A stretch of 64,000 nt of DNA from Chloroflexota bacterium (GTDB lineage: Bacteria; Chloroflexota; Dehalococcoidia; Lucifugimonadales; UBA3495). Of the stretch, positions 11,500 through 47,298 are shown in pieces; positions within the stretch are counted from its first letter, which is position 1; each line of letters starts with the position of its first letter. The notes under the pieces were generated by a model, which was not told where the DNA came from, did no database searches, and saw only the letters and a program-made list of their open reading frames with translations. The position numbers were made by a program, and so were the translations under genes. The DNA lies in the NCBI GenBank assembly GCA_002721995.1, contig PBMF01000014.1, positions 15,541 through 79,540 of the forward strand. The letters are read 5' to 3'.

Positions 11500-12621
11500 C
11501 CCGCCGCCGAGGTGTAGAGCTCGGACCGGGGGTGGAAGTCGCTCCAGGCGAACCAGAAAGAATAGTGGGAGGGCAGCCGATCCAGCCTCTCCCCAAACAA
11601 CGGCCCCTCAACCGCCTGGCCGGTAAGCACCTGCCATAGACTGCCCGTTTCTTGGTCCCGCATGAGGGCCACACCGTCCCGAGGCGCCGACGGCTCAAAG
11701 GTCAGAGTCCGCCCGTCCAACCGCCTCTGGAACGCCGCACCGCTTTCGGACAGGGACTCGAAGGTCACCACCACCTCCTCCCCGGCGAAATGGTCGTTGA
11801 TGACGCTGCGCCCCGCGATGGCGCTGAAGGGATAGGCCTTGGCCAACCCCGACACCGTCATACCCATGACCAGTTCCTTGCCGGGCAGACGTCTGTCCTT
11901 GTTTGACTCGCCCAGGAAGCCGCCGACCCGCCCCGGTAATAACCCTCGTAGGTGTCGCCCTGGTACCGGCCCCGCTTGTCCAGGACCAGGGTGTCGGGGT
12001 GAAGGCTGAGCCACTGCTGCCAGGTGGTCTGCACGGCGGGCACGATCTCCAGTGCCTGGTTCACCTGGGGGCCCTTCACGCCCCGGCTGAGGAACTGACT
12101 CCAGAGAGTCTCCGACTGGTGGTCATACATCACCAGGGCGTTCATGATGAGCTTGCCCGACACGCCAAAGGTGTGCTCGGTGCCCTGAATCTCTCGGTCA
12201 TACACTATGCCCGTGAAGCGGAGGGGTCACCATGTGACGGCAATGGGCTTGCCGCCGACGGTGTCGTTCACTATCTCGTGACGCGAGAGCAGGTTCAGGG
12301 GGTAGGCCCGGTGCTCGCTGTTGATGGACACGCCCAGCACCCGCTCCCCCAGGTCCATCTGTCCCAGCGCCTGGGCTGAGGTGGCGAATTGGGGCTCCAG
12401 GATGGCGGGGATGCCGTCCCGTCCCAGCACGGTGATGATCTTGAGGTCTCGGGTGCCCGTGGAATCGGGCCGGGCCGGGCCGACGTGTCGACGATGCTGA
12501 CCGTCTCCCCCCGCAGGTTCAGGAAGAAGGAACGTAGCTGCGGGGCGAACAGCACGGCGGCAACCAGCGACACCAGGAGCAGCACCACAATCGAACCGGA
12601 CTTGCTCAGGAACCATCCCAT
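11496..12621 (-). pseudogene. DUF3179 domain protein with N-terminal TM helix; reading frame interrupted three times (frameshift ~12467-12482, in-frame TGA 12229-12227, frameshift ~11938)
   Basis: Pieces in order: MGWFLSKSGSIVVLLLVSLVAAVLF...; DLKIITVLGRDGIPAILEPQFATSAQALGQMDLGERVLGVSINSEHRAYPLNLLSRHEIVNDTVGGKPIAVTW-TGA-PLRFTGIVYDREIQGTEHTFGVSGKLIMNALVMYDHQSETLWSQ; GFLGESNKDRRLPGKELVMGMTVSGLAKAYPF. Confidence 0.75.
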
Positions 12622-12660
12622 GTGAATTTTGATGCCGGACGGGGGCGCTGGATTCAGCGG

Positions 12661-13065
12661 CTAATCCTGTACCAGTATGGCCTCGATCTCCACGTCCAGA
12701 CCCGGCTCGGCCAGGGCGGTGATGCCGATGAGCGAGTTGGCGGGATACATGTCCTGGAAGTGCTTGGCCATCAACTCCCGCATCTTGTCCGAGTCCGCTT
12801 GGTAGTCAGGGATGCTGGTCACGAAGGTGGTCAGTTTGACGAAGTTGCCGGGGCCGAACCCTTCCTCGGCCGCCACCGCCACGAGACGGCCCAGCGTCAC
12901 GTCCAGCTGCTCCATCATGGACTTGCCCTTGGAATCGGTGCCCCGGGCGGTGCAGCCCGATATGAACAGCATGTTGCCCGCTTTAACGGCGCGGCTGTAG
13001 GTGGGTCCCGCCGGTGCGATGTCCGGGTATTGCATTCTTTCCACTGCCATCTGAATACTCCTCAC
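12661..13065 (-). CDS. RidA family protein (YjgF/YER057c/UK114)
   Basis: AVKAGNMLFISGCTARGTD...GPGNFVKLTTFVTSIPDYQ...ALAEPGLDVEIEAILVQD. Confidence 0.88.
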   Translation of the reverse strand: MRSIQMAVERMQYPDIAPAGPTYSRAVKAGNMLFISGCTARGTDSKGKSMMEQLDVTLGRLVAVAAEEGFGPGNFVKLTTFVTSIPDYQADSDKMRELMAKHFQDMYPANSLIGITALAEPGLDVEIEAILVQD

Positions 13066-46568: not shown

Positions 46569-46800
46569 CCATCAGGCCCACGGTAGGCGTTGATTTGCCG
46601 GTTAAGGGAACATCCGGCCGGATTGGGGCAGATTACTCCAGGGCCCAACCAAGGTCAATTCCGTCCGGATAGACCCCGTCTACCAAATCCGGTTACGCCG
46701 GTGCTCCCGTATCATGAAAAGAGCGTATCCTACTTCCGGACCAAACAGCGAAAATCCAGCCCCAATCACCCGGACAGTCCGGGCCCGACTCGGAGTCACA

Positions 46801-47298
46801 ATGGCTGAAATGCTGCAACAGGGAGACCGGTTCCCCACTCTCACTTTCAACCTACTGGATGGTAGCGCCATGACAGTGCCTGACGCCCTGCCCAGCCGCT
46901 ATGCAGCAATCATCTTTTACCGTGGCCATTGGTGACCCTACTGCAACCGGCAGTTGGCCGAGTGGCAAGCGAACAAAGCGGCGCTGGACGAGCTGGACCT
47001 GACCATCATTTCAGTCAGCACCGACACCAAGGAACAGACCCGGGAGGTCATGGAAAAACACGGGCTGACGTTCCCCATGGCCTACGGCGCCAGCCCGGAA
47101 GACGGCGCTGCCATCGGCGCCTGGTGGTCCGACGACCACGACGGGTATATCCAGCCCGCCGAGTTCCTGCTGGGTCGGGGCGGTGTGGTGTTGGGCGGCA
47201 TGTACGCGTCGGGCCCCATCGGCCGTATGGGGCCGGAGGAAGCCATCCGGTTCATTACCGTGAGGGAGAACCGCCGCCGAGAGGAAGAGGGCGCCTAG
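46801..47298 (+). CDS. Peroxiredoxin-like (AhpC/TSA) protein, candidate selenoprotein with TGA as Sec at codon 45 (46933-46935)
   Basis: MAEMLQQGDRFPTLTFNLLDGSAMTVPDALPSRYAAIIFYRGHW-U-PYCNRQLAEWQANKAALDELDLTIISVSTDTKEQTREVMEKHGLTFPMAYGASPE; both halves are in the same frame. Confidence 0.82.

Follow-up and report, generated by a model that had tools for sequence, protein, structure and literature searches.

A predicted UxxC peroxiredoxin-like selenoprotein with a conserved bSECIS element in SAR202-type Chloroflexota

Results

The locus and its reading frame

The gene described here lies on the forward strand of the window, by which we mean the whole 64,000-nucleotide stretch of DNA that was analysed, and its features are collected in Table 1. 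Read from its ATG, the frame is interrupted only once, by a TGA, and stays open from there to the TAG at 47296-47298 with no indel. This bears out the sequence-only reading made earlier of this DNA, in which two ORFs of the same frame are joined across the TGA; the 33 nucleotides quoted there from 46921 are right in their letters, but run to 46953 rather than to 46950. Standard annotation cuts the gene in two, which reading it as a selenoprotein gene would mend. On inspection, most orthologues likewise begin with ATG and have a GGAG-type motif in the corresponding position before it. The read-through product matches the PF00578 AhpC-TSA family in a profile search (65.7 bits against a cut-off of 26), and has no obvious signal peptide.

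The genome to which the window belongs is a draft: 50 contigs totalling 2.57 Mb, with 88% completeness and 5.7% contamination. Elsewhere TGA is an ordinary stop: of the window's 36 long ORFs nine terminate with it, and it closes the gene as well in four of the orthologues that carry the internal TGA. These uses rule out a global reassignment of this codon. The surroundings of the gene offered no functional clue; the recurring neighbours vary by lineage across the neighbourhoods of 42 related loci. By eye, the neighbours in relatives include a luciferase-like flavin oxidoreductase and a DinB-like protein, and 10 loci, including that of the window, have an MFS transporter nearby.

Table 1. Features of the predicted selenoprotein gene, in positions of the window
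Feature	Coordinates	Strand	Details
Shine-Dalgarno-like CGGAGT	46791..46796	+	5' of the ATG; by inspection
Predicted selenoprotein gene	46801..47298	+	165 aa including Sec; Prx-like / AhpC-TSA fold, UxxC; ATG to TAG
In-frame TGA	46933..46935	+	predicted to be read as selenocysteine U45 in RGHW-U-PYC, from TGA conservation in homologues
TGC codon of C48	46942..46944	+	UxxC partner of U45; invariant in the alignment
bSECIS core	46948..46960	+	CGGC 46948-46951, loop AGTTG 46952-46956, GCCG 46957-46960

Fold and active site of the product

An AlphaFold model of the product (pLDDT 89.8) found its best PDB matches in Bcp and other peroxiredoxins (AhpC, AhpE), followed by ResA. Profile alignments to peroxiredoxins of known structure place U45 on the Thr/Ser of the PxxxTxxC motif, C48 on the peroxidatic Cys and R41 on the motif Pro; one of these structures, 3hjp, is a mutant with Ser at the peroxidatic position that aligns with C48. 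The sequence-only reading had put the TGA exactly at the peroxidatic Cys, a placement which these alignments do not support. Aligned to ResA, U45 and C48 together match its CxxC pair, and P119 matches the Pro that precedes 'TTF'. Since U45 and C48 occupy the ResA CxxC positions and U45 the Thr position of peroxiredoxins, the active site appears to be thiol-disulfide-oxidoreductase-like on a peroxiredoxin-like frame.

The closest competitor to this view of the product would make it a true peroxiredoxin with Sec in place of the peroxidatic Cys. Both the Pfam assignment to AhpC-TSA and the top fold matches would fit it, but the Pro and Thr of the peroxiredoxin active site are not kept (R41 and U45 stand in their places) and it is C48, not U, that sits at the peroxidatic position. 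The product also lacks the PxxxTxx[C/U] pattern with U last by which TxxU peroxiredoxins are recognised, and we consider this reading unlikely. From its sequence, a UxxC redox enzyme of the thiol:disulfide type is the more likely identity, with thiol-peroxidase activity of the product, by way of U45 or C48, a possibility alongside it.

Conservation of the TGA among relatives

Some match to the gene was seen in 44 of 60 related genomes, which together yielded 25 orthologues, the window's own gene counted, at 55-99% identity. All 25 have TGA at codon 45, and it is their sole internal stop save in one (L040), which has an extra TAG close to its end. When 84,980 species genomes were scanned independently, TGA stood at the codon in 41 of the 42 homologues of at least 50% identity, the lone exception being a TGC in Thermoflexus; the more distant homologues of the same scan have TGC or TGT in every case (38/38). 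Of the two patterns used in that scan, one was written with Cys at the codon and the other leaves the codon out, so that if anything the scan was biased towards Cys forms. All of this evidence is comparative, and since the sequences are related the counts are not counts of independent events. The TGA, conserved in frame and aligned with Cys in other homologues, has the pattern by which a bacterial selenoprotein is recognised from comparison, and the numbers strongly support the earlier proposal of a candidate selenoprotein with Sec at this codon.

In public records the close homologues are assigned to SAR202 cluster, Dehalococcoidia or Chloroflexi bacteria, and a further sample of 150 Chloroflexota genomes added one more homologue, a Cys form at 45% identity. 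In a tree of 78 rows the Chloroflexota Sec forms make up a cluster that also contains one Thermoflexus Cys form; the placement of the latter is weakly supported and we do not claim a Sec-to-Cys reversion from it. One row labelled as a Sec form (L162) really has TGC at the codon, the label having come from a stop elsewhere, and one genome (G004) carries a second, decayed copy with additional stops in which the loop leucine described below is changed (L124).

A conserved bSECIS element downstream of the TGA

Downstream of the TGA the motif CGGCAGTTRGCCG is kept in 24 of the 25 orthologues, with a stem that is identical in all 24; the sole deviant, L039, has a changed stem. The element is a hairpin of 4 bp whose 5-nt loop, AGUUR, has G as its second base, and 16 nt lie between UGA and loop. 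It satisfies the published bSECIS rules (PMC13188914), namely a loop of 3-9 nt, a stem of 4-16 bp, a G within the first two positions of the loop and a spacing of 16-37 nt. An outer fifth pair is T-A in nine and G-C in another nine of 24 distinct rows, and its covariation (0.137, against 0.034 when shuffled) was equalled in none of 500 shuffles; in the window itself the two positions, 46947 and 46961, are C and A and are unpaired. The sequence-only reading had assigned the SECIS to a hairpin at 46950-46970. That hairpin can form here, but 19 of 24 distinct sequences cannot make one of its G-C pairs and it shows no covariation, the conserved element being the one at 46948-46960.

Taken in a single sequence such a hairpin proves nothing, because the peptide RQLA already favours it: among synonymous shuffles of the window sequence the 4-bp stem survives in 24%, and 32% are as stable when folded. 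The Cys homologues serve here as natural controls. Where the loop position encodes Leu, the codon is TTR (TTA or TTG) in 40 of 40 Sec homologues compared with 13 of 39 Cys homologues (Fisher p 1.6e-11, an optimistic value since the rows are related), and TTR makes up 21% of the Leu codons elsewhere in these genes.

Selenocysteine machinery and the decoding of UGA

The same genome holds selA (contig C43, 454 bits), selB (contig C28, 343 bits) and selD (contig C48, 372 bits), each above its cut-off. All three, together with tRNA-Sec, are what the sequence-only reading had proposed to look for, and a lack of selA, selB or tRNA-Sec was to count against it. For the tRNA the outcome was divided: the gene is intact in relatives, while the genome's own 88%-complete assembly (G000) yielded 3' fragments only. 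One of these fragments, the 65-nt 3' part at C12:127-191 (L006), is identical to the same part of the gene of a genus mate, the 5' part being replaced by unrelated sequence close to the contig start; the other is a degraded 49-nt 3' piece at C8:56705-56753 (L083). Of the 60 relatives, 50 have clear tRNA-Sec matches, at 59-74 bits, a tally to be read with care as the model also gives a weak signal on ordinary Ser and Leu tRNAs, and the anticodon is TCA in the several relatives in which it was read. We infer that the intact gene is simply missing from the assembly.

In several relatives tRNA-Sec lies close to contig ends, and G007 has two such genes. Mobile elements may use the tRNA-Sec locus to integrate; inspection by eye of the ORFs in C12:1-20000 turned up no integrase. 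The selD gene (L079, G000:C48:12067-12984) has an in-frame TGA of its own, followed by a stable hairpin, and the SelD of this genome probably contains Sec itself.

Some bacteria are known to have tRNAs besides tRNA-Sec that read UGA, and with the intact tRNA-Sec missing from the assembly one might suppose that a changed tRNA reads this UGA as cysteine or another amino acid. The presence of selA, selB and selD, the tRNA-Sec of the relatives and the normal use of TGA as a stop all speak against this, as does the loop-leucine constraint, which tracks TGA and not TGC/TGT, and we regard it as very improbable. The chance that a pseudogene or a base-call error turned TGC or TGT into TGA in a single genome is slighter again; the window does come from a draft assembly and TGA is one base from a Cys codon, but this account is refuted by dozens of genomes, each assembled separately, that share the TGA and have the frame intact and the protein conserved on either side. 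Varied inactivating lesions in close relatives, which the earlier reading had named as a sign against a selenoprotein, did not appear; the same TGA is kept instead. Finally, an ORF with a TTG start does exist at 46954-47298, but two short proteins made by stopping at the TGA and re-initiating there can be rejected as scarcely credible, since this TTG is the SECIS loop leucine and is TTA, not a usual start, in 11 of 25 orthologues, and the redox motif would be split.

Other selenoprotein candidates

The window holds a candidate second selenoprotein, a DUF3179 protein (PF11376, 202 bits) on the minus strand at 11863-12799, with an in-frame TGA at 12229-12227 in VTW-U-PLRFTG. Lists of selenoprotein families include DUF3179, with UxxC/T; the window protein has UxxR. 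A second Prx-like group, found in this genome and its relatives (L168 at G000:C18:51840-52133, and L045-L048), carries a FYRG-type motif followed by U-GIC or U-TYC, and has hairpins immediately 3' of the TGA that differ in sequence from the one described above.

Discussion

The conserved TGA, the conserved RNA hairpin, the Sec machinery of the genome and the fold of the product all support one explanation. Judged from sequence comparison, the gene almost certainly encodes a functional selenoprotein of a SAR202-type Chloroflexota bacterium, with UGA decoded as Sec at residue 45. SelB, with Sec-tRNA-Sec, would bind the CGGC-AGUUR-GCCG hairpin, which starts 12 nt past the UGA, and so direct Sec insertion at this codon. 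The product would be small, Prx-like and of thioredoxin fold, with U45-P-Y-C48 as its redox motif, and would most likely act as a selenol/thiol oxidoreductase. By analogy with thioredoxins, the Sec at the N-terminal position of the motif may be the attacking residue. U45 would then attack an oxidised substrate, presumably a disulfide or a peroxide, and C48 would resolve the adduct to give a U-C selenosulfide, which a putative reductant would recycle.

What this enzyme means for its hosts can be put forward more tentatively. It would belong to a SAR202-centred Prx-like subfamily that almost always has Sec, Cys versions being nearly absent, and whose bSECIS, CGGCAGUURGCCG, is unusually conserved in sequence; such a subfamily may be the hallmark of a selenium-dependent redox system specific to these bacteria. 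We would put this reading as a whole at somewhat less than an even chance. The gene provides a clear host lineage, SAR202 and its kin, for a UxxC Prx-like selenoprotein, along with a well-conserved bSECIS, and points to selenium use in SAR202, a group known mostly from metagenomes. None of the papers listed in literature searches was about SAR202 selenoproteins, which does not prove that no such report exists.

Among known proteins, the overall fold is that of Bcp / PrxQ, with 3hjp (Bcp4) the best PDB match, but their PxxxTxxC reads RxxxUxxC here. The CxxC pair of ResA finds its counterpart in U45 and C48 (TM-score by query 0.65-0.70), whereas ResA is a Cys enzyme and the present protein has Sec and a longer C-terminal helix. 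The SelL-related redox protein NF040769 (NCBIfam) is of a similar kind, although the match is weak (30 bits, far under the cut-off of 120), and none of the NCBIfam subfamilies compared (Bcp thiol peroxidase, SelL-related, PrxQ, ResA, PrxU) was matched above its cut-off, the best reaching 31.7 bits against 140. The nearest known kind is that of the UxxC Prx-like PF00578 selenoproteins, which appear as 'Prx-like 1' in the GOS survey (PMC2398784) and in the lists of PMC9312934 and PMC13188914. The present protein has both the PF00578 domain and the UxxC motif that define them, and as far as the descriptions in these sources go it joins them as an additional member. The GOS Prx-like thiol:disulfide oxidoreductases share with it the same PF00578 domain, the UxxC motif and a bSECIS directly past the UGA, and many came from marine sources; the likeness is one of description and not of sequence by sequence, and the GOS passages on this set do not name SAR202 Chloroflexota as a host lineage.
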